A stretch of DNA of 64,000 nt from the NCBI RefSeq assembly GCF_013166655.1, contig NZ_JABKCA010000003.1, positions 62,001 to 126,000 of the forward strand, given 5' to 3'. Each line of letters begins with the position of its first letter. Within the stretch, counting starts at the first letter, position 1. Made by a program: the position numbers and the translations under genes. The stretch is from Lentimicrobium sp. L6 (GTDB lineage: Bacteria > Bacteroidota > Bacteroidia > Bacteroidales > UBA12170). Positions 8,354 through 62,177 of the stretch are shown here, piece after piece. The notes beneath the pieces are model-generated. The model made no database searches, was not told where the DNA came from, and worked only from the letters and a program-made list of their open reading frames with translations.

Positions 8354-10366
8354 TTAAAACAAACCGTCAATCAATTTCTCATCAGTAAAATTTGGTAGTG
8401 TAACCTTCAGGTCTGGATTTACATCCATGGCACGTTTAATAGCAAATACAGCTTCTTCGTTTCTGGCCCAGCTTCTTCTGCTGATTCCATTATTTACATC
8501 CCAGAAAAGCATGCTTTTTAATCTGCGCTCTGCATCGGAAGAACCATCTAATAGCATGCCAAAGCCACCGTTAATTACTTCTCCCCAGCCAACACCACCA
8601 CCATTGTGGATGCTTACCCAAGTAGCTCCTCTGAAAGAATCGCCAATGACATTTTGAATCGCCATATCGGCAGTGAATGAAGAACCATCATAAATATTTG
8701 AAGTTTCGCGGAAAGGGCTATCCGTACCAGAAACATCATGGTGATCACGACCTAAAACTACAGGAGCTGTAATTCTACCTTCTTCAATTGCCTTGTTAAA
8801 TGCAGCAGCAATTTTTATTCTTCCTTCTGCATCGGCATAAAGGATTCTAGCTTGAGAACCCACCACTAGTTTGTTTTCTTGTGCTCCTTTAATCCATTGA
8901 ATATTATCAGCCATTTGGCCTTGGATTTCCTTAGGACTACTGGCCATGATTTCTGCTAGAACATCACTAGCAATCTGGTCAGTGATTTCTAAGTCTTTAG
9001 GGTCGTTTGAAGTACAAACCCAACGGAAAGGACCAAAACCATAATCAAAAAACATAGGTCCCATAATATCTTGAACGTAAGAAGGGTATTTGAAATCGAT
9101 ACCATTTTCTGCCATCACATCTGCTCCAGCGCGGCTAGCTTCTAGGAGGAAAGCATTACCGTAATCGAAGAAATAAGTTCCACGAGCGGTATGTTTGTTA
9201 ACTGCAGCAGCATGACGGCGCAGCGTCTCTTGAATCTTTTCTTTGAAAAGCTCGGGCTGTTTGGCCATCATCTCGTTAGACTCTTCATAACTCATATCCA
9301 CTGGATAATATCCTCCAGCCCATGGGTTGTGTAATGATGTTTGGTCTGAACCCAATTCAACAAAGACATCCTTCTCTGCAAATTTCTCCCAAACATCAAC
9401 AATGTTTCCTTGGTAAGCAATGGAAACCACTTCTTTATTTTCTTTAGCCTTTTTTACTCGGCTTACTAATACATCTAAATCATCAATCAGCTCATCAACC
9501 CAACCTTGAGAATGACGAGTATGTGTTGCTTTAGGATTAACTTCTGCACAAACAGAAACCACTCCAGCAATATTTCCAGCTTTTGGTTGTGCACCAGACA
9601 TACCACCTAAGCCAGCAGTTAAAAATAGTTTTCCTGCAAATGGATTTTCACCTTCTTTAGCTACTTTTCGAGCTCCATTCATTACGGTAATGGTAGTTCC
9701 GTGGACAATTCCTTGAGGACCAATATACATAAATGAACCTGCTGTCATTTGACCATATTGAGATACGCCTAAAGCATTGAATTTTTCCCAATCGTCTGGT
9801 TTGCTATAATTAGGAATCACCATTCCGTTCGTTACCACAACTCTTGGTGCATCTTTGTGGGATGGAAATAATCCCATGGGATGTCCGGAATACATGGTCA
9901 ATGTTTGCTCATCAGTCATTGTGGCTAAATACTGCATAGTGAGCAGGTATTGAGCCCAGTTTTGGAAAACGGCACCGTTTCCACCATAAGTAATGAGCTC
10001 ATGAGGATGTTGAGCAACTGCATAATCCAAATTGTTCATAATCATAAGCATGATAGAAGCTGCTTGTTTGCTTTGGTGCGGAAACTCATCGATATGACGG
10101 GCATGAATAGCATAATCAGGACGAAAACGGAACATATAAATACGACCATAATCTGTTAATTCTTCAGCAAATTCTGGAGCCAAAATAGCATGATGTTTTT
10201 CCGGGAAATAGCGTAATGCATTTTTTAATGCCAACTTCTTTTCTTCTGGACTTAGAATTTCTTTACGAATAGGAGCATGATTGATATCCTCGTCATACTT
10301 CTTTACAGAAGGTAATTGCTCAGGGATACCTTGTAATATTTGTTGCTTGAATGTTGCTATTTCCAT
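8354..10366 (-). CDS. hutU: Urocanate hydratase (urocanase), long form
   Basis: 670 residues from the preferred ATG at 10366 (an ATG 14 codons earlier lies upstream of the -7 box at 10392-10399 and is unlikely to be used). The enzyme converts urocanate to 4-imidazolone-5-propionate with tightly bound NAD+, the second step of histidine breakdown. Visible family motifs are YGGNGAVFQNW, MTAGSFMYIGPQGIVHGT, GLGGMSGAQPKA and LGRDHHDVSGTDSPFRET. Many urocanases have about 555 residues; this is the longer version seen in some phyla. No other hut gene lies nearby. A hairpin terminator follows. Confidence 0.95.
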   Translation of the reverse strand: MEIATFKQQILQGIPEQLPSVKKYDEDINHAPIRKEILSPEEKKLALKNALRYFPEKHHAILAPEFAEELTDYGRIYMFRFRPDYAIHARHIDEFPHQSKQAASIMLMIMNNLDYAVAQHPHELITYGGNGAVFQNWAQYLLTMQYLATMTDEQTLTMYSGHPMGLFPSHKDAPRVVVTNGMVIPNYSKPDDWEKFNALGVSQYGQMTAGSFMYIGPQGIVHGTTITVMNGARKVAKEGENPFAGKLFLTAGLGGMSGAQPKAGNIAGVVSVCAEVNPKATHTRHSQGWVDELIDDLDVLVSRVKKAKENKEVVSIAYQGNIVDVWEKFAEKDVFVELGSDQTSLHNPWAGGYYPVDMSYEESNEMMAKQPELFKEKIQETLRRHAAAVNKHTARGTYFFDYGNAFLLEASRAGADVMAENGIDFKYPSYVQDIMGPMFFDYGFGPFRWVCTSNDPKDLEITDQIASDVLAEIMASSPKEIQGQMADNIQWIKGAQENKLVVGSQARILYADAEGRIKIAAAFNKAIEEGRITAPVVLGRDHHDVSGTDSPFRETSNIYDGSSFTADMAIQNVIGDSFRGATWVSIHNGGGVGWGEVINGGFGMLLDGSSDAERRLKSMLFWDVNNGISRRSWARNEEAVFAIKRAMDVNPDLKVTLPNFTDEKLIDGLF

Positions 10367-10391
10367 GTCAATCTTGTTTTGAAAATTTTTG

Positions 10392-10399
10392 CAAAGGTA
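10392..10399 (-). promoter_or_regulatory. -7 box TACCTTTG for hutU
   Basis: TAnnTTTG match on the minus strand, 25 nt upstream of the ATG at 10366. It supports that ATG over the one at 10408. Confidence 0.45.
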
Positions 10400-10475
10400 A
10401 GCAATCAACTTCTATTTGCCGATGTGAGAAATACCTAATTTGCTAATGGCGAAATAGTTGTTTTTAAAGAATATG

Positions 10476-18206: not shown

Positions 18207-18228
18207 AGTGGAGAAGTAAATTTGAAGG

Positions 18229-18259
18229 AGCTGAGCAATTTATTTTGTTCAGCTTTTTT
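18229..18259 (+). terminator. Terminator of the metal operon
   Basis: AGCTGAGCAA (18229-18238) pairs with TTGTTCAGCT (18245-18254) over 10 bp with one G-U pair, followed by TTTTTT. Confidence 0.8.
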
Positions 18260-18302
18260 AGTTTCTTAGGGCAACTATCTTCTTGAAAATTACGGTATCT
18301 CA

Positions 18303-18363: not shown

Positions 18364-19635
18364 ATGAAAACTTACCCCCTAAAAACGATCATTGCACAAG
18401 CCAAAATGCTATCTCCATTTTATAGAGATTTATATAAAAATCTTAAAGACGATGGATTTTGGACATTGAAAGATTTACCTTTAACAAAGCAAAAGCCCTT
18501 TTGGCAAGCCAATCAAATAAAAGACAATCAACTCCTTACTGGTAAACTCCACGATGGAATCGTGTTTAAGAGTGGAGGAACCACTGGAGCCCCTAAGTTT
18601 TCAGCCTATACTAAAATGGAATGGGAAACCATGACCACTTCTTTTGGTCAGTATTTTGGTTCAAATGGTTTGAAAACAGGCGATAGAGTAGCAAACCTAT
18701 TTTATGTAGGAGAGTTATACTCTAGTTTTATTTTCTTGAGCGATACTATAGAAAGGTGCCCTGTGGAGGTGACTATTTTTCCCATTTCTGGTGCAGCGCC
18801 AGCAGAATTCATTATCAATACCATGAAAGACTTTGATATTAATGTAATTCTTTGTGTTCCTACTACTATCATGGCCTTGGCCGATCATATTAAAGCCAAT
18901 CATATAGAGGGTATAAAGCTGGACACCATATATTTTGGTGGAGAAACCATGTATGAGGATCAAAGATTTTATTTGAAGGAAGTTTTTCCAGGAGTAGAGA
19001 TTCGTTCTGTTGGCTATGCTAGTGTAGATGCTGGCTTATTAGGTTTTGCTGATGATAGCTGTGCCTTTAATGAACACCGTCAATTTGATGATTATAATAT
19101 TATCGAGATTATTGATGAGGACACTGGGCAGCCTATTGATGAAGTTGGGAAACATGGTAAAGTTTATAGTACTAATCTTAGTCGTTTGCTCATGCCTATT
19201 ATCAGATATCCAGTTGGTGATAATGGCTTTTGGGTGGAAGAAAAGGGTAGTGTAAACAGAAAGTATAAAATTCTAGGACGTTCAGAAGAAGGAGCGAGAA
19301 TAGGCCCTGTCACTTTTTATGTGGAGGATTTTCAGCATATCTTAAGTCAATTCGAAAGTGAGTTCTCTGTTTCTAATTCGCAAATGCTAATAGAACATTT
19401 CGATCACAAAGATTGCTTGACGCTAAAAATAGCCGTTCATGAAAAACCTAATGATATTCACCTGATGAATGAGGCTATCATACAAATGGTTTACAAGGAA
19501 CGTCATATGTTTGAAGAGGAAATTGCTAAGAGAAAAATACAACCTATCAAGATAGAGTGGCTGGATTCAGATCAATTAGAAATCAATAAGCGAACTGGGA
19601 AGCTCATCCAGATTATTGACAAGCGATTCAAGTAG
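18364..19635 (+). CDS. PaaK-like adenylate-forming ligase
   Basis: 423 residues from ATG 18364 (an in-frame TTG at 18283 would add 27 residues not typical of the family). The adenylation motif is FKSGGTTGAPKFS; YFGGETM and a C-terminal GKLIQIIDKR follow. It resembles the phenylacetate-CoA ligase/F390 synthetase branch of adenylating enzymes, which activate carboxylates as acyl-AMP. It is paralogous to the C-terminal half of the LuxC fusion two genes downstream: same SGGTTGxPK context and same GKLxxIIDKR ending. Substrate unknown. First gene of a four-gene operon. Confidence 0.8.
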   Translation: MKTYPLKTIIAQAKMLSPFYRDLYKNLKDDGFWTLKDLPLTKQKPFWQANQIKDNQLLTGKLHDGIVFKSGGTTGAPKFSAYTKMEWETMTTSFGQYFGSNGLKTGDRVANLFYVGELYSSFIFLSDTIERCPVEVTIFPISGAAPAEFIINTMKDFDINVILCVPTTIMALADHIKANHIEGIKLDTIYFGGETMYEDQRFYLKEVFPGVEIRSVGYASVDAGLLGFADDSCAFNEHRQFDDYNIIEIIDEDTGQPIDEVGKHGKVYSTNLSRLLMPIIRYPVGDNGFWVEEKGSVNRKYKILGRSEEGARIGPVTFYVEDFQHILSQFESEFSVSNSQMLIEHFDHKDCLTLKIAVHEKPNDIHLMNEAIIQMVYKERHMFEEEIAKRKIQPIKIEWLDSDQLEINKRTGKLIQIIDKRFK

Positions 19636-19659
19636 TATAAAGCATTAAAACCAAAACAG

Positions 19660-20838
19660 ATGAGTGAAAATAATAAAGAATTAAAAGTGCCAGATCATTC
19701 TGCCTTATCAAAAGTGCAAGACTTATGCGATATTCCTCAACCTTATTTGCAGTCTGAGGAAATGGATACTCTGTTCCTAGATGCTATGAAACAAAGTGTA
19801 GAATGGCATAAAAGTAGAAATCCTTTCTATGACAAATTATTAAAATTAAATCAGATTCAATCTGAGGATTTAAAGAATCTTGAGGATTTACAAAAGCTTC
19901 CCTATATCCATGCTAATTTCTTTAAAACGCATGAAGTACCAACGGTTTCTAAAGAAGATGTTGCCATAACATTAACCTCCTCAGGGACCACTGGACAAAA
20001 AAGTCAGATGTTTTTCGATGATTGGTCCATCAATTCTGGACGGAGGATGGTAGATTTCGTTTATGATTATTATGGTTGGAATACTCCTGAAACTAAAACC
20101 AATTATATAGTTTCCAATTATGAGCCAGAACCAGATTCTACTCGTGGAACCACAAATACAAGTAAATTCTTAACCCATTATGCTCCTGCTAATGATATGT
20201 TTTATTTGCTTCGTTCCAATGGGCGAGGAGGTCATGAATTTGATGCCTTTGGAGCCATTGAAAAATTAAAGAAGTACGAGAAAGAAGGATTACCTGTTAG
20301 AGTGGTCGGATTTCCATCTTTCTTTTATTTTGTGATTAAGCAAATGATGGATTTAGGAATGCCTCCTCTAAAACTCAATCCAAAGTCATTGGTTTTTACC
20401 GCCGGTGGATGGAAAGGATATGCCGACCAGCAAATATCTAAAGCTGATTTTGCAGCATTAGTAGAACAGCAATTAGGAATTCCTGAGAGTCAATGCCGCG
20501 ATGGATATGGTTCTGTTGAGCACTCAGTGCCTTATATCGAATGCCCAAAGCATCATCTGCATGTTCCAATATGGTCAAGAGCCTTTATTAGGGATACTAA
20601 AACGCATGAGGTTATCGGTTATAATAAACCTGGGTTTTTATGTTTCGTGACTCCTTATATCACATCTGTGCCTGCCATTAGTGTAATGATGGGTGATTTA
20701 GCTATGTTGCATCCAAGTGATGAATGTAGCTGTGGTATTGAAACTCCTTTTATTGAAATACTCGGTAGAGCAGGTGTTTCAAAGAATAAAAGTTGTGCAG
20801 TATCAGCATCAGAGTTATTAAAAAAGGAAAGTGTTTAA
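19660..20838 (+). CDS. LuxE-family acyl-protein synthetase
   Basis: 392 residues. The adenylation loop is SSGTTGQKS (residues 107-115); PYIHANFFKTHE, the VGFPSFFYF segment and the DGYGSVEHSVPYIEC region match LuxE family proteins (PF04443). The C-terminal end has NKSCAVSASELL, with Cys379 in the place where LuxE carries its acyl-accepting cysteine (family knowledge). LuxE activates a fatty acid as acyl-AMP and passes it to LuxC. A CSCG motif lies near the end. It lies 24 nt after the ligase gene and 16 nt before the LuxC fusion. Confidence 0.85.
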   Translation: MSENNKELKVPDHSALSKVQDLCDIPQPYLQSEEMDTLFLDAMKQSVEWHKSRNPFYDKLLKLNQIQSEDLKNLEDLQKLPYIHANFFKTHEVPTVSKEDVAITLTSSGTTGQKSQMFFDDWSINSGRRMVDFVYDYYGWNTPETKTNYIVSNYEPEPDSTRGTTNTSKFLTHYAPANDMFYLLRSNGRGGHEFDAFGAIEKLKKYEKEGLPVRVVGFPSFFYFVIKQMMDLGMPPLKLNPKSLVFTAGGWKGYADQQISKADFAALVEQQLGIPESQCRDGYGSVEHSVPYIECPKHHLHVPIWSRAFIRDTKTHEVIGYNKPGFLCFVTPYITSVPAISVMMGDLAMLHPSDECSCGIETPFIEILGRAGVSKNKSCAVSASELLKKESV

Positions 20839-20854
20839 TTCAAGAGGAAAAACA

Positions 20855-23359
20855 ATGAAAAAAGAACATTTATATAGAGGAGAATGGATTTCTGAATCAG
20901 AATTAGCCACTTCATTGAATAGATTAGAGGAGGTCATATCTCAAGATTTATCTATTAAATTTAATCCACTAGTATTATTAAAAGCAGCAGAAAAAGTAAA
21001 ATCAGATATTGAAAAGGAAGTGCCTCAAGAATGGATGGCTTCCTTAATGCTGTCTGGTCAGACTGAACAAGCTGCTCAGCAAACCATATCCGTGATTGCA
21101 AATTTCTTTAATCAAGACGATTTAAAGAAGAAATATATCAGAGAATTAGGAAGTTTAGAACCGTTTATTCCAAAGCGTTTTGATTTTAAGACCAACGTGT
21201 TCGAAGCTTGGGCTCCTCTGGGTGCTCTTGTTCATATTGTTCCAGGAAATGCTGCCACCGTTGCACCACTTAGTGTATTGGAAGGCCTAATGTCCGGAAA
21301 TATAAATCTCTTGAAAAACTCCAGCAAAAATGGGAATTTCCCTCAATTGGTTTTAAAAGCATTAGTGGATGCTGATGGAACAGGACATCTTAAATCATTT
21401 GTTTATGCTTTTCAAATCTCATCAAAAGAGGAGGTGCTTTTAGGGAAATTATATCAAGTTGCCAACGGAATTGCAGCTTGGGGAGGAGAAGAGTCTGTTG
21501 CTGCTGTTAAGAAAATGGCTGCTCCATCTGTTAGAATTATTGATTGGGGGCATAAGATTAGTTTTAGTTATGTGGCGAAAAGTAAAAAAGATGATAGACC
21601 AAGTTTAGAGGCCATTGCTTATGATATCTGTGTGATTGAACAGCAAGCCTGCTCCAGTCCACAGTGTTTGTATTTAGATACTGATGATCAAACAGAACTG
21701 GATGAATTTGCCAATCATTTTTCTGAGATTTTAGAACAGGTTTCCAATACTTTTCCGCAAAAGAATCCAAGCATACAAGAGAGTGCTGAAATTTCTGGAA
21801 TTACTCAAGTCGCTCGTACTTCTGAAGCTCTAGGTGAATCAAAAGTGATAGAATCAAATGATCATATTTGGAGAATTATTGTTGATTATAAATCCTCATT
21901 ACGTCCCTCTCCTTTATACCGTACTATTTGGGTGAAACCTTTGTCCTCGAATAAAATAGTTTCTGTTCTAGAACCATTTAGAACCTATTTGCAATCGGCT
22001 GGATTGGCATGTCAGAGAGAAGAATTGTATGACTTGTCTACCAAATTGTTTCAAGCTGGAGTAACAAGAGTCATGCCTCCAGGTAAGATGCTCAATGGAT
22101 ATGCAGGGCAGCCACATGATGGAGTGTATGCCTTACAAAGATATTCCCGAAGAATAAGCTTAATGGCAGAGGAATTAACAAAGGATATTAGTGACTTTTC
22201 TGAATTAAAAACTCAAGATGTATTGCCTTTTTCAACAAATACAGCTGTGACTACCAAAGAGGATTATTTAGCCCATCATATTTCAGAAGAAAATGCTCAA
22301 TTATTTTTCAAAAGTGGTGGTACTACAGGTAAGCCTAAAAAGGCAGTTTACACCTATGATGATTATCATGTGCAAATGAAAGCAGGTGCTGAAGCCTTGT
22401 TTTCGGCGGGCTTAAATCCTGAAACGGATAGATGTGCCAATCTGTTTTATTCAGGGCATATGTACGGTGGATTCATTAGCTTTTGGAGTATTTTGGAATT
22501 TCTCCAAGCCAAGCAATTTCCTATCACCGCTATCCCCGATTTTGATCAATTAACCGAAAGTATAATAGATAATAAAATTGATACCCTTTTGGGAATGCCG
22601 TTTTACTTATCGCAGCTGTTTGAGCATTCTTTTGAAGAACTGAAAGCTTATGGAGGTTTGGAAAAAATATTCTATGGAGGCGAACATTGGCCCGAAGAGC
22701 AATGTATAAAGTATCAGAAAGCTTTCGGAATAGAAATGTTTAAATCCGCTGTCTATGGTAGTAATGATGCTGGACCTTTGGGCTATGCTTGTTCTCATAC
22801 GCAAGGAAGTGTGCATCACTTGCTCACCCAGACTCAATATTTAGAAATACTCGAATTAGATAGTTTAAAACCTGTTGAAAAAGGGGAGGTAGGAAGATTG
22901 ATTTTTACTTCCAAATACAGAAAAGGACAGAACCTTAATAGATACGAAATTGGCGATTTGGGTAGGTGGATTGAAGGAGATTGTCCTTGTGGAAGAAAAG
23001 CACCTCGCTTTGAATTATTAGGTCGTTTTGGCGATATTTTCAAGATGGGACCACTATTTAATTATAATGAATTTGTGGCGGTTTTGGAGAAGGAGTTTCA
23101 TTATGCTGGACAATTGCAACTTGTTCTTGATGTTGCAGATGATGGCCCTCAATCCATATTGATGAGGATAGAACAGAAATATAAATTGAAAGAAACTGAT
23201 GTTCTAAATGCTATTAGAAGGGCATTTCCAACCATTGATGTAGTGAATGAGAATCAAGTTCTGATAGATTTAAAAGTTGATTTTATTGACGAAGAGCAAT
23301 TTGAGCAAGTGTCCACCACTGGAAAATTAAAAAGGATTATTGATAAAAGAACTTTGTAA
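20855..23359 (+). CDS. LuxC acyl-CoA/acyl reductase fused to a PaaK-like ligase domain
   Basis: 834 residues from ATG 20855, preceded by AAGAGGAAAAA; an earlier ATG at 20831 overlaps luxE. Residues about 1-440 are LuxC: the HIVPGNAATVAPLS nucleotide-binding part and the catalytic thiol C266 in QQACSSPQC. Residues about 450-834 are an adenylating domain with SGGTTGKPK at 487-495, YGSNDAGPLGYAC, a CPCG zinc-like motif and the C-terminal GKLKRIIDKR. The combination could activate a carboxylate and reduce it to an aldehyde on one chain. The ligase half is a paralogue of the first gene in the operon. Confidence 0.85.
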   Translation: MKKEHLYRGEWISESELATSLNRLEEVISQDLSIKFNPLVLLKAAEKVKSDIEKEVPQEWMASLMLSGQTEQAAQQTISVIANFFNQDDLKKKYIRELGSLEPFIPKRFDFKTNVFEAWAPLGALVHIVPGNAATVAPLSVLEGLMSGNINLLKNSSKNGNFPQLVLKALVDADGTGHLKSFVYAFQISSKEEVLLGKLYQVANGIAAWGGEESVAAVKKMAAPSVRIIDWGHKISFSYVAKSKKDDRPSLEAIAYDICVIEQQACSSPQCLYLDTDDQTELDEFANHFSEILEQVSNTFPQKNPSIQESAEISGITQVARTSEALGESKVIESNDHIWRIIVDYKSSLRPSPLYRTIWVKPLSSNKIVSVLEPFRTYLQSAGLACQREELYDLSTKLFQAGVTRVMPPGKMLNGYAGQPHDGVYALQRYSRRISLMAEELTKDISDFSELKTQDVLPFSTNTAVTTKEDYLAHHISEENAQLFFKSGGTTGKPKKAVYTYDDYHVQMKAGAEALFSAGLNPETDRCANLFYSGHMYGGFISFWSILEFLQAKQFPITAIPDFDQLTESIIDNKIDTLLGMPFYLSQLFEHSFEELKAYGGLEKIFYGGEHWPEEQCIKYQKAFGIEMFKSAVYGSNDAGPLGYACSHTQGSVHHLLTQTQYLEILELDSLKPVEKGEVGRLIFTSKYRKGQNLNRYEIGDLGRWIEGDCPCGRKAPRFELLGRFGDIFKMGPLFNYNEFVAVLEKEFHYAGQLQLVLDVADDGPQSILMRIEQKYKLKETDVLNAIRRAFPTIDVVNENQVLIDLKVDFIDEEQFEQVSTTGKLKRIIDKRTL

Positions 23360-23361
23360 TC

Positions 23362-24837
23362 ATGTTGAGGGAAGTGAAAATACATATTCCAAATGCTGTA
23401 GAGAGTATTTCTATTAGTTCTGCCTCCATAAAAGAGTATGCGCACCTTGTTGGTTTTAGGAGGAGGGATGCTAATAAAATTACCCAAATCACGGAGGAGG
23501 TTTTGAAACAAATCATAAAGTGTTTTTATTTGGAAGAACAAGTGGACGAGATCATTGTGCACTTGGAGCACATTACAGAAGGTTTGAGAATTACAATCAA
23601 CGATCATGGTATTCCAATGGATGTCGAGAAGATTCAATCTTGTGATGATCATGATCAACAAGGTTTTGGTATGGTCAGGAAAATGCTTCATCAATATATG
23701 AATGTGGTGAGTTTTGAGGCGAAAGGGTTTGCTGGGAATGAAACCATCTTTGAAAAGCATTTGAAACCAAAGAAGCAAATTTCAGAAACCGATGAACATT
23801 CTATTCTCCAAGAAGAATTAGAACATGAAACCCATAAGGATATTTCTGTTCGTTTATTAGACAAGGAAGAATCCAATGCCATCTCAAAGCTCGCATACAT
23901 TGCCTACCATTACAGCTATCCATATGAATTAATCTACATTCCTAAGAAGGTACAGAAGGAAATAGAACGTAAACACATGTTTTCAGCAGTTGGTATCCTT
24001 GGAGATGATAATAAAATCATTTCACATACAGCTTTGGTCTTGTCTGACTCTAGTTCTAAAACTGCTGAAATAGGTATTGCTTTCACCGACCCTATGTATC
24101 GCGGTTATGGTTGTATGCAAAAGCTATGGACTTATTTAATTGATGATGTTGCAGCTAGCATGAAATTGTTTGGTGTTTTTGCTATGGCGGTTTGTTCTCA
24201 TCCTTATTCACAAAAGGCTTGTCATAAGATGCAATTATTAGATACTGCTTTATTGGTTTCAAGGGCTCCAGTTTTAGGTTTTGAAAGCATAGAGGTGGAG
24301 GAAAAGCAAAGAGAAAGTTTAATGATTGCGTTTCGAGTTCTGAACCAACCTGAAAAGGTGACTTTCTATGTTCCAAAGCATCATAAGAAAATGGTTCTGG
24401 CTATTTCGAAGCAATTGGGATTGAATGCTGTTATTGCTAAACATCCTCTTTTTTCTTTTGATAGCAATCATACCTATTCTAACTTGGAGGTTTCTAATGA
24501 TGATGTATTTAAAGTTTCAAATATTGTGCTTAATCATATAGGTAGAGATATAAAGCAGGTATTTGAAGAGAACCTACAAAAATTAAAAAACGCTCGATAT
24601 GAATCTATTTATCTATTCTTAGATTTGGCAGATTATCATACTGAAAAATATACCTCTTATTTTGAAAGTAAAGGATTTTTCTTCGCAGGAATCATGCATA
24701 AAGAAAATAGGATGAATTTGGTTTTACAATATTTAAATAATCAGGATTATCATTTTGCTAGTTTACAAATTGCTTCTGATTTTGGTCAGGTGTTGGCAAA
24801 TTATGTAGAGGCTGAATATGAAAAGAATAGAATTTAG
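23362..24837 (+). CDS. RsbW-like HATPase fused to a GNAT acetyltransferase domain
   Basis: 491 residues, 2 nt after the LuxC fusion. Residues about 1-135 look like an anti-sigma-type HATPase (RsbW/SpoIIAB family): NDHGIPMD (G1-like box) and QGFGMVRKM (G2-like). The N-box, usually with an Asn, reads TEEVLKQIIKCF, so ATP binding may be altered. Residues about 165-300 form a GNAT domain with AEIGIAFTDPMYRGYGCMQ, the acetyl-CoA loop (RGYG). The rest, about 300-491, is a second GNAT-like or unknown region. In this operon it may modify or regulate the reductase system; its target is unknown. Confidence 0.7.
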   Translation: MLREVKIHIPNAVESISISSASIKEYAHLVGFRRRDANKITQITEEVLKQIIKCFYLEEQVDEIIVHLEHITEGLRITINDHGIPMDVEKIQSCDDHDQQGFGMVRKMLHQYMNVVSFEAKGFAGNETIFEKHLKPKKQISETDEHSILQEELEHETHKDISVRLLDKEESNAISKLAYIAYHYSYPYELIYIPKKVQKEIERKHMFSAVGILGDDNKIISHTALVLSDSSSKTAEIGIAFTDPMYRGYGCMQKLWTYLIDDVAASMKLFGVFAMAVCSHPYSQKACHKMQLLDTALLVSRAPVLGFESIEVEEKQRESLMIAFRVLNQPEKVTFYVPKHHKKMVLAISKQLGLNAVIAKHPLFSFDSNHTYSNLEVSNDDVFKVSNIVLNHIGRDIKQVFEENLQKLKNARYESIYLFLDLADYHTEKYTSYFESKGFFFAGIMHKENRMNLVLQYLNNQDYHFASLQIASDFGQVLANYVEAEYEKNRI

Positions 24838-27219: not shown

Positions 27220-27852
27220 ATGGAAGAACAGATTATAAAAAATGGAAAGTTACAGTGGGAGCCTGGAACTATGGTTTATCCCATTCCTGCTGTAATGCTG
27301 AGTTGTGGTGATCACAAGGATAATTATAATATCATTACCATCGCTTGGACCGGGACTTTGAATACCAACCCTCCCATGTTATATGCTTCCATTAGGAAGA
27401 ATAGACATTCACATGAAATAGTTTCTAGAACTAAAGAATTTGTAATCAACTTAACCAATAAAGATTTGGCTTTTCAAACAGATTGGTGTGGTGTTAAAAG
27501 TGGAAAAGACTATGATAAATTTAAATCCATGAAGCTGACCCCTAGAAAAGGAGAAAAAGTAAATGCACCTATTATAGTGGAGTCTCCTGTAAATATTGAA
27601 TGTAAGGTCACTGAAATAAGAGAACTGGGTACCCATGATATGTTTGTAGCTGAAGTAGTCAATATACAGGCAGATGAGAAATATTTAGATAAAAGAAGTG
27701 GCAGTTTTGAGCTATTCAGAGCAAATCCACTCGTCTACTCTCATGGCCATTATTATGAACTAGGCGATCATCTTGGTAAATTTGGTTTCTCGGTGATGAG
27801 CGAAAAGGCTAAAAAGAAACAGCCTCAGGTGAACTATAATAGGCGAAAATAA
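27220..27852 (+). CDS. Flavin reductase-like domain protein
   Basis: 210 residues. The FMN-binding split-barrel pattern is clear: PVMLSCG near residue 27-32 region, NIITIAWTGTLNTNPPMLYASIRK in pieces, HSHEIV, EFVINL and DKYLD..GSFELFRANPLVYSHGHYYELG. These proteins reduce or bind FMN and partner oxygenases or work alone. The C-terminus is Lys/Arg-rich and unstructured. A symmetric terminator lies at 28009-28043. It is monocistronic, and no oxygenase lies nearby. Confidence 0.85.
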   Translation: MEEQIIKNGKLQWEPGTMVYPIPAVMLSCGDHKDNYNIITIAWTGTLNTNPPMLYASIRKNRHSHEIVSRTKEFVINLTNKDLAFQTDWCGVKSGKDYDKFKSMKLTPRKGEKVNAPIIVESPVNIECKVTEIRELGTHDMFVAEVVNIQADEKYLDKRSGSFELFRANPLVYSHGHYYELGDHLGKFGFSVMSEKAKKKQPQVNYNRRK

Positions 27853-61523: not shown

Positions 61524-62177
61524 ATGACTCAGAAACTAAAAATAGCCATAGCAGAAGACAACAGCTTTTTGTTGCAAAGTATTATAGATAAACTATCTTT
61601 TTTGGATAATGTTCAGATAAAACATTGTTCCGAAAATGGAGAATTATTACTTAAAAAACTAGAGGAATATTCCCAAATCGATGTGGTATTGATGGATATT
61701 CAAATGCCTAAGATGGATGGAATAGAAGCCACCTCTATTTTAAAGTCAAAGTATCCTCAGATAAAAGTGGTGATGTTGACTATTTTTGATGATGATGAAA
61801 ATATTTTTAAAGCCATTCAAGCTGGAGCCGATGGCTATTTGCTCAAAGAAACGGGCCCCGCTGAGTTGGATAAAAGTTTAAAAGAAACTATAAATGGAGG
61901 AGCACCCATGACTCCCATTATTGCCAGTAAAGCCTTGCAACTGCTTCGCTTTACTCCAGAATCTTTCCTGAAAAAAGAAGAAAACCCACTCAGTAATCGA
62001 GAAACTCAAGTGCTTGAACAACTCTCTAAAGGACTCAATTATCAAGAAATAGCAGAGAATTTAATTATTTCACCCTCCACCGTACGCAAGCATATTGAGA
62101 ATATCTACAAAAAACTTCAAGTCAGAAATAAAATGGAAGCCGTAAATAAAGCAGATAAAAATGCTTGGTTAAAATAA
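61524..62177 (+). CDS. NarL/LuxR-type response regulator
   Basis: 217 residues from ATG 61524; ATG 61488 lies inside the -33 box. Receiver domain (about 1-120) with IAEDNS and the acceptor Asp in LMDIQMPKMDG, Lys in LLKETG. A LuxR-type helix-turn-helix (about 150-215) has LSNRETQVLEQLSKGLNYQEIAENL and STVRKHIENIYKKL. Partner of the TPR kinase. The matched promoters described nearby suggest autoregulation and control of the next gene. Confidence 0.93.
   Translation: MTQKLKIAIAEDNSFLLQSIIDKLSFLDNVQIKHCSENGELLLKKLEEYSQIDVVLMDIQMPKMDGIEATSILKSKYPQIKVVMLTIFDDDENIFKAIQAGADGYLLKETGPAELDKSLKETINGGAPMTPIIASKALQLLRFTPESFLKKEENPLSNRETQVLEQLSKGLNYQEIAENLIISPSTVRKHIENIYKKLQVRNKMEAVNKADKNAWLK

Follow-up and report, generated by a model that had tools for sequence, protein, structure and literature searches.

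A LuxE/LuxC operon with two PaaK-like ligases in Lentimicrobium sp. L6 and its probable role in making a leupeptin-type peptide aldehyde

The window analysed here, 64,000 nucleotides of a contig of Lentimicrobium sp. L6 (NZ_JABKCA010000003.1, positions 62,001 to 126,000), contains an operon of four open reading frames (ORFs) on the + strand. The ORFs lie head to tail at window positions 18364-24837 (about 6.5 kb) and are separated by 24 bases (lig1/LuxE), 16 bases (LuxE/LuxC-lig2) and 2 bases (LuxC-lig2/RsbW-GNAT). The original prediction, made from the letters of the sequence, had described tightly packed genes for two PaaK-like ligases, the second of them fused to LuxC, together with a LuxE and an RsbW-like/GNAT fusion, and both the ORFs and the Pfam and NCBIfam matches agree with this description. 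The genes and their domains (lengths in amino acids, aa) are as follows.

18364-19635, + strand: lig1, stand-alone PaaK-like AMP-forming ligase, 423 aa from a conserved ATG
19660-20838, + strand: LuxE-type acyl-protein synthetase, 392 aa
20855-23359, + strand: LuxC-lig2 fusion protein, 834 aa
20855-22162, + strand: LuxC reductase domain, aa 1-436 of the fusion (Pfam LuxC)
22163-23359, + strand: lig2, PaaK-like ligase domain, aa 437-834 of the fusion (Pfam AMP-binding)
23362-24837, + strand: RsbW-GNAT protein (protein 4), 491 aa
23362-23781, + strand: RsbW-like HATPase_c_2 domain, aa 1-140 of protein 4 (Pfam)
23833-24336, + strand: GNAT domain, aa 158-325 of protein 4, with acetyl-CoA motif YRGYGCMQKLW
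24349-24834, + strand: C-terminal region, aa 330-491 of protein 4, conserved across relatives

Judged by their sequence motifs, the enzymes of the operon look intact. LuxE (Pfam E-value 1e-31) has the loop SSGTTGQKS from aa 107 and an acyl-carrying Cys379 (KNKSCAVS) that aligns with the cysteine of LuxE in PDB 7xc6. LuxC (1e-87) has a catalytic Cys266 (QQACSSPQ) that aligns with the LuxC QQAC motif of the same entry, and both cysteine motifs recur in related clusters. The AMP-binding match (3e-12) lies in the same protein as LuxC, and NCBIfam places lig1 among PaaK-like ligases (4e-21). Each ligase retains its phosphate loop and a lysine in a C-terminal T-G-K motif: SGGTTGAP from aa 70 and Lys413, of catalytic type, in RTGKLIQ for lig1, and KSGGTTGKP and Lys824 for lig2. 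With the catalytic cysteines of LuxC and LuxE conserved, the reduction of a carboxylate to an aldehyde, as originally proposed, is probably right.

The operon had also been described as lacking luciferase, and this extends to the whole genome: Bac_luciferase (PF00296) gave no match anywhere in its 5.1 Mb. The only other LuxC-family gene of the genome encodes a 361-aa reductase on a different contig. The operon resembles luxCDABE (PDB 7xc6) in its LuxE and LuxC families, their catalytic cysteines and the reduction of an activated acyl group to an aldehyde. It differs in the absence of luciferase from the genome and of LuxD from the operon, in the fusion of LuxC to a ligase, and in scores that fall far below the NCBIfam equivalog cut-offs for long-chain (bioluminescence) enzymes, LuxE reaching 98 of 550 bits and LuxC 88 of 750. 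Pfam found no PP-binding carrier domain in the four operon proteins.

Protein 4 had been taken for an acyltransferase-type protein, and its relatives bear this out. The GNAT domain scores above the Pfam cut-off in the homologues L056, L057 and L048, a profile of nine GNAT sequences matches solved GNATs (best E 4e-5), and the R-G-x-G acetyl-CoA motif A is present. The sole NCBIfam match of the Streptomyces GNAT, under the cut-off, is AblB, a beta-lysine N-acetyltransferase. The C-terminal region also occurs, in divergent form, in the Salmonella and Streptomyces GNAT proteins; a reading of it as a second, tandem GNAT was not supported (hhalign probability 0.2; best PDB E 0.045). An AlphaFold model of protein 4 had a mean pLDDT (predicted local distance difference test) of 30 and was too poor to use.

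The distribution of the LuxC-ligase fusion was followed in a phylum sample of 395 genomes and an order sample of 393. The fusion is rare, being found across Bacteroidota in one of the 395 genomes, that of the window. Full or partial fusions were present in the order sample in the window genome, G931, G997 and G1013, with a divergent one in G1049; L003 (genome G397) and L004 were added to the set from genome contigs. Co-occurrence of the four genes in other genomes, on which the original prediction had staked itself, was observed: lig1, LuxE, LuxC-lig2 and GNAT are kept together in six other Bacteroidota metagenome-assembled genomes, in two of them (L004, L058) partially, at contig ends, and on Salmonella and Streptomyces plasmids. 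LuxE and PaaK-like ligase genes adjoin every fusion found as far as its contig reaches, and an RsbW-GNAT gene does so in all five loci that extend far enough (the window, L003, L056, L057 and L059). With LuxE, PaaK-like ligases and GNAT beside each fusion as far as the contigs reach, the arrangement is not due to chance. Identity to the window proteins is 84-90% in L003, 36-64% in L056 and 24-54% in L057, and L059 is divergent.

In the same-genus locus L069, aroDE and the TonB/HMA block lie in the order of the window, and nothing but a small ATPase gene separates them. This is an empty site, and the four genes have therefore been gained or lost as a unit.

A tblastn search of plasmids found the full-length fusion together with LuxE on two Salmonella conjugative plasmids, in Streptomyces NBC_00158 and BHT-5-2, and on pSCAT of S. 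cattleyicolor. Annotation and ORF reading placed lig1 and GNAT genes beside the plasmid fusions, several of which are on Streptomyces/Streptantibioticus plasmids. The proteins of the Salmonella cluster in CP054717 are 29-47% identical to those of the window, and the DNA of CP053580 is 99.9% identical to CP054717, though a separate GNAT gene is not listed for it. The leup-like cluster of the two Salmonella enterica conjugative IncF plasmids (L044, 10272-16435, and L045; 99.9% identical) lies near recombinase and transposase genes. At its head is an MdfA-like MFS gene truncated to 121 aa; in the Streptomyces clusters an MFS gene lies inside the cluster, and NBC_00158 has an AraC regulator upstream. 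The plasmid clusters thus share with the window the gene types, some 29-51% identity and the LuxC-ligase fusion, and differ in having a GNAT without the RsbW domain and an MFS gene.

Orthologues of lig1 in Salmonella, Streptomyces and L057 are 37-43% identical to it and clearly nearer to it than is lig2. A tree groups the Bacteroidota lig2 domains (window, L003, L056, L057) with their Salmonella and Streptomyces counterparts in a single clade (support 100/100), separate from lig1 and from other PaaK-like ligases; the divergent domain of L059 is not part of it. The deep branches of a concatenated LuxC+LuxE tree did not resolve, and we therefore make no claim as to donor or recipient of the cluster. 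No relatives were found in viral contigs and matches in a phage collection were partial, so a phage or viral origin was rejected. E. coli gave no match to the operon, near or distant.

Leupeptin is acetyl-Leu-Leu-argininal. Its assembly calls for one N-acetyltransferase, two ligases that form peptide bonds and a single ATP/NADPH-dependent acid reductase, and therefore fits the GNAT, lig1, lig2 and LuxE/LuxC of the operon. Older work on Streptomyces roseus reportedly described two enzymes, leupeptin acid synthetase and leupeptin acid reductase. PMC11212599, citing Li et al. (2020), states for Xenorhabdus bovienii that leupeptin is made without a non-ribosomal peptide synthetase (NRPS): separate AMP-dependent ligases form its amide bonds, and a reductase makes the aldehyde. 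The leupABCD genes of Klebsiella michiganensis/oxytoca, Xenorhabdus and Photorhabdus, in the outline that PMC8283571, PMC11480411 and PMC11212599 give of Li et al. (2020), resemble the window operon in being four genes for AMP-dependent ligases and a reductase, with no NRPS; they span about 5.8 kb, have a transporter beside them and, like the window operon, were inserted as a unit at a defined site. Compared by these descriptions, the window operon differs in its Bacteroidota host, the RsbW-like domain on its GNAT, the absence of a transporter and the order lig1-LuxE-LuxC.lig2-GNAT. PMC8283571 places Klebsiella leupABCD and the adjacent transporter at CP011636.1 315353-321183; leupA begins at 315403, and a leupB primer reaches to 316639. 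From these positions leupABCD measures 5781 bp from the leupA start to the cluster end at 321183, and leupA less than 1237 bp. The Salmonella set (LuxE, LuxC-lig, lig, GNAT) matches this geometry, its first gene measuring 1128 bp and the whole 5759 bp from ATG to stop.

Judged by its gene content, its size and what is published on leupABCD, the operon is thus probably a compact biosynthetic cluster of the leupeptin type, free of carrier proteins, that makes an N-acetyl peptide aldehyde; the claim is for a peptide aldehyde of this type and not for leupeptin itself. A literature search found no earlier report of such an operon in Bacteroidota, subscription papers being outside its reach. Antipain, MAPI, flavopeptin and livipeptin (PMC10548850) belong to the same proposed chemical class of N-acyl peptide aldehyde protease inhibitors; they are made with an NRPS or a tRNA-dependent enzyme, neither of which is in the window operon.

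We infer a pathway, with its substrates, order of reactions and product, in which the GNAT domain of protein 4 would use acetyl-CoA to N-acetylate an amino acid. Lig1 would adenylate the N-acetyl amino acid and couple it to a second amino acid, and lig2 would add a third. LuxE would then adenylate the terminal carboxylate of the peptide and load it onto its own Cys379, and LuxC would take the acyl group on Cys266 and reduce it with NADPH to the aldehyde. Only LuxE would feed LuxC, lig1 and lig2 serving to form peptide bonds, and the product would be an N-acetyl tripeptide aldehyde that blocks serine/cysteine proteases. The original prediction had three adenylating modules at work on a lipid or pigment acid. 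Its aldehyde is retained here; the lipid or pigment substrate is probably wrong, and the two ligases are better read as peptide-bond formers. Lig2 is weakly similar to the amide- or ester-forming DdaG and BagE/FevW NCBIfam models, and this similarity and the AblB match of the Streptomyces GNAT agree weakly with this pathway.

Several points weigh against a leupeptin-type pathway. The window operon contains no transporter or exporter gene, though a transporter would be accessory to the pathway and take no catalytic part in it, and the GNAT domain of its protein 4 scores 18.8 bits, below the Pfam cut-off of 20.7. Orthology to LeupA-D would follow from gene content, size and published description rather than from sequence, and that the leup reductase is of LuxC type would likewise follow from gene content. 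The substrates of PaaK-like ligases, here the particular amino acids, are not predictable from sequence. LuxE/LuxC pairs also serve in other pathways, as with YcaO/DUF692 neighbours in L049 and in flagellin glycosylation islands. PaaK-like enzymes usually take aryl or short acids and yield CoA esters, and the nearest NCBIfam models and the PDB matches are of the phenylacetate-CoA ligase type. The operon might accordingly make another small N-acylated or aromatic aldehyde or alcohol that is not a peptide, the ligases making CoA thioesters or non-peptide amides, GNAT moving one acyl group and LuxE/LuxC reducing another acid. We think this unlikely, since none of the phenylacetate-CoA ligase-type cut-offs is reached and the gene set and its size fit leupABCD better.

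An operon for fatty-acid reduction, giving a fatty aldehyde or alcohol for a lipid, pigment or signal, would account for the LuxC and LuxE families, and flagellin glycosylation islands do pair LuxC/LuxE with an acyl carrier protein, FabG and an AMP ligase. However, the acyl carrier protein, FabG and glycosyltransferases of those islands are not among the immediate neighbours of the window operon, neither in the operon nor beside the clusters of its relatives was any fatty-acid gene seen, acyl carrier protein included, and the long-chain cut-offs are missed by the wide margins given above; this role is improbable. Still less probable is a regulatory system in which RsbW-GNAT and LuxE acylate cellular proteins with acyl groups supplied by the ligases. 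It would explain the RsbW domain of protein 4 and the existence of stand-alone RsbW-GNAT genes in G416, one of them beside a histone-deacetylase-like gene, but GNAT, ligases and LuxC/LuxE are retained in the clusters of Salmonella and Streptomyces, where the RsbW domain is missing, and the exporters of several clusters (an MFS gene also lies within those of L057 and L059) point to a small secreted product.

If the leupeptin-type pathway is correct, an anonymous 'lux-like' operon becomes a predicted protease-inhibitor pathway, and biosynthesis of this type extends to plasmids of Salmonella and Streptomyces as well as to Bacteroidota. A LuxC-PaaK fusion beside LuxE, a PaaK ligase and GNAT would then be a sequence signature for mining carrier-free peptide aldehydes.

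New here is a Bacteroidota branch in which the acetyltransferase of the cluster carries an RsbW-like domain, with a STAS protein inside the cluster in two relatives: L057, where a sensor-bearing SpoIIE phosphatase is also encoded, and L059. STAS and SpoIIE are the counterparts of RsbW in a partner switch. The domain was seen only in the Bacteroidota clusters, being absent from the Salmonella and Streptomyces GNATs, and is a fusion rather than core to the pathway. The stand-alone RsbW-GNAT genes of G416, whose contigs show no LuxC near them, suggest recruitment from a Bacteroidota family. HATPase_c_2 is marginal in window protein 4 (E=2e-6, 28.2 bits against a cut-off of 27.4) and reaches 64-65 bits in L056/L057. 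The N-box Asn of the ATP/Mg site is retained in L056, L057, L039 and L040 and replaced in the window, L003 and L059, which makes kinase activity of the window domain doubtful. No STAS or SpoIIE gene is linked to the window operon, STAS genes being present elsewhere in the genome, so with the Asn replaced the window switch may be degenerate or act in trans.

In Bacteroidota, fusion of the RsbW-like domain to GNAT would probably tie acetylation of the amino acid to STAS/SpoIIE partner switching. More tentatively, GNAT could itself be part of the partner switch: once freed by a sensor-bearing SpoIIE-type phosphatase, a STAS protein might bind the RsbW-like domain and so control, at the level of the enzyme and not through a sigma factor, whether the secreted protease inhibitor is made. 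This fusion, with STAS/SpoIIE genes inside the clusters of relatives, would be an unusual control of a biosynthetic enzyme. Contig C16 of the same genome holds an unlinked RsbR/S/T-like module (L070, 3199-5761, read by eye) with two STAS proteins, a possible trans partner for the window RsbW domain. The stand-alone RsbW-GNAT gene of L039 (2514-5071, G416) and the adjoining histone-deacetylase-like gene (PF00850) are possibly an acetylation/deacetylation pair.

Three other loci depart from the four-gene arrangement. The divergent cluster L059 (156-9664, G1049) comprises RsbW-GNAT, MFS, a 449-aa protein of unclear family, ligase, LuxE, LuxC-ligase and STAS, and with its extra 449-aa gene may make something else. 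L041 (9796-12167, G394) has a LuxE-LuxC pair between DUF4842 and P-type ATPase genes, with no adjoining ligase or GNAT, and is another orphan use of LuxC/LuxE. On a Streptomyces europaeiscabiei plasmid (L049, 4883-13341), LuxE and LuxC have as neighbours an MBL-fold hydrolase and proteins of the YcaO and DUF692 (multinuclear iron) types, in a cluster like those for ribosomally synthesised and post-translationally modified peptides; this suggests that LuxE/LuxC reduce the carboxylate of a ribosomal peptide there.

Two sets of neighbours were considered as parts of the window system and set aside. A flavin reductase gene at 27220-27852, 2.4 kb from the operon, was a candidate luciferase partner; it is kept beside aroDE at an operon-free place in the same-genus locus L068 and is therefore outside the operon. 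The upstream TonB receptor/HMA pair has the same order in the operon-free L069, and the TonB gene is parted from the operon by the following feature, in itself weak evidence.

18222-18261, + strand: terminator-like hairpin 3′ of the TonB receptor gene

A urocanate hydratase gene (read by eye) lies at window positions 8354-10408, 8 kb from the operon, and others at L056 14058-16055, L058 3589-5595 and L040 1807-3855. It adjoins the cluster in G931 and G1013 and a stand-alone RsbW-GNAT gene in G416, and this recurring neighbour may reflect a shared insertion neighbourhood.

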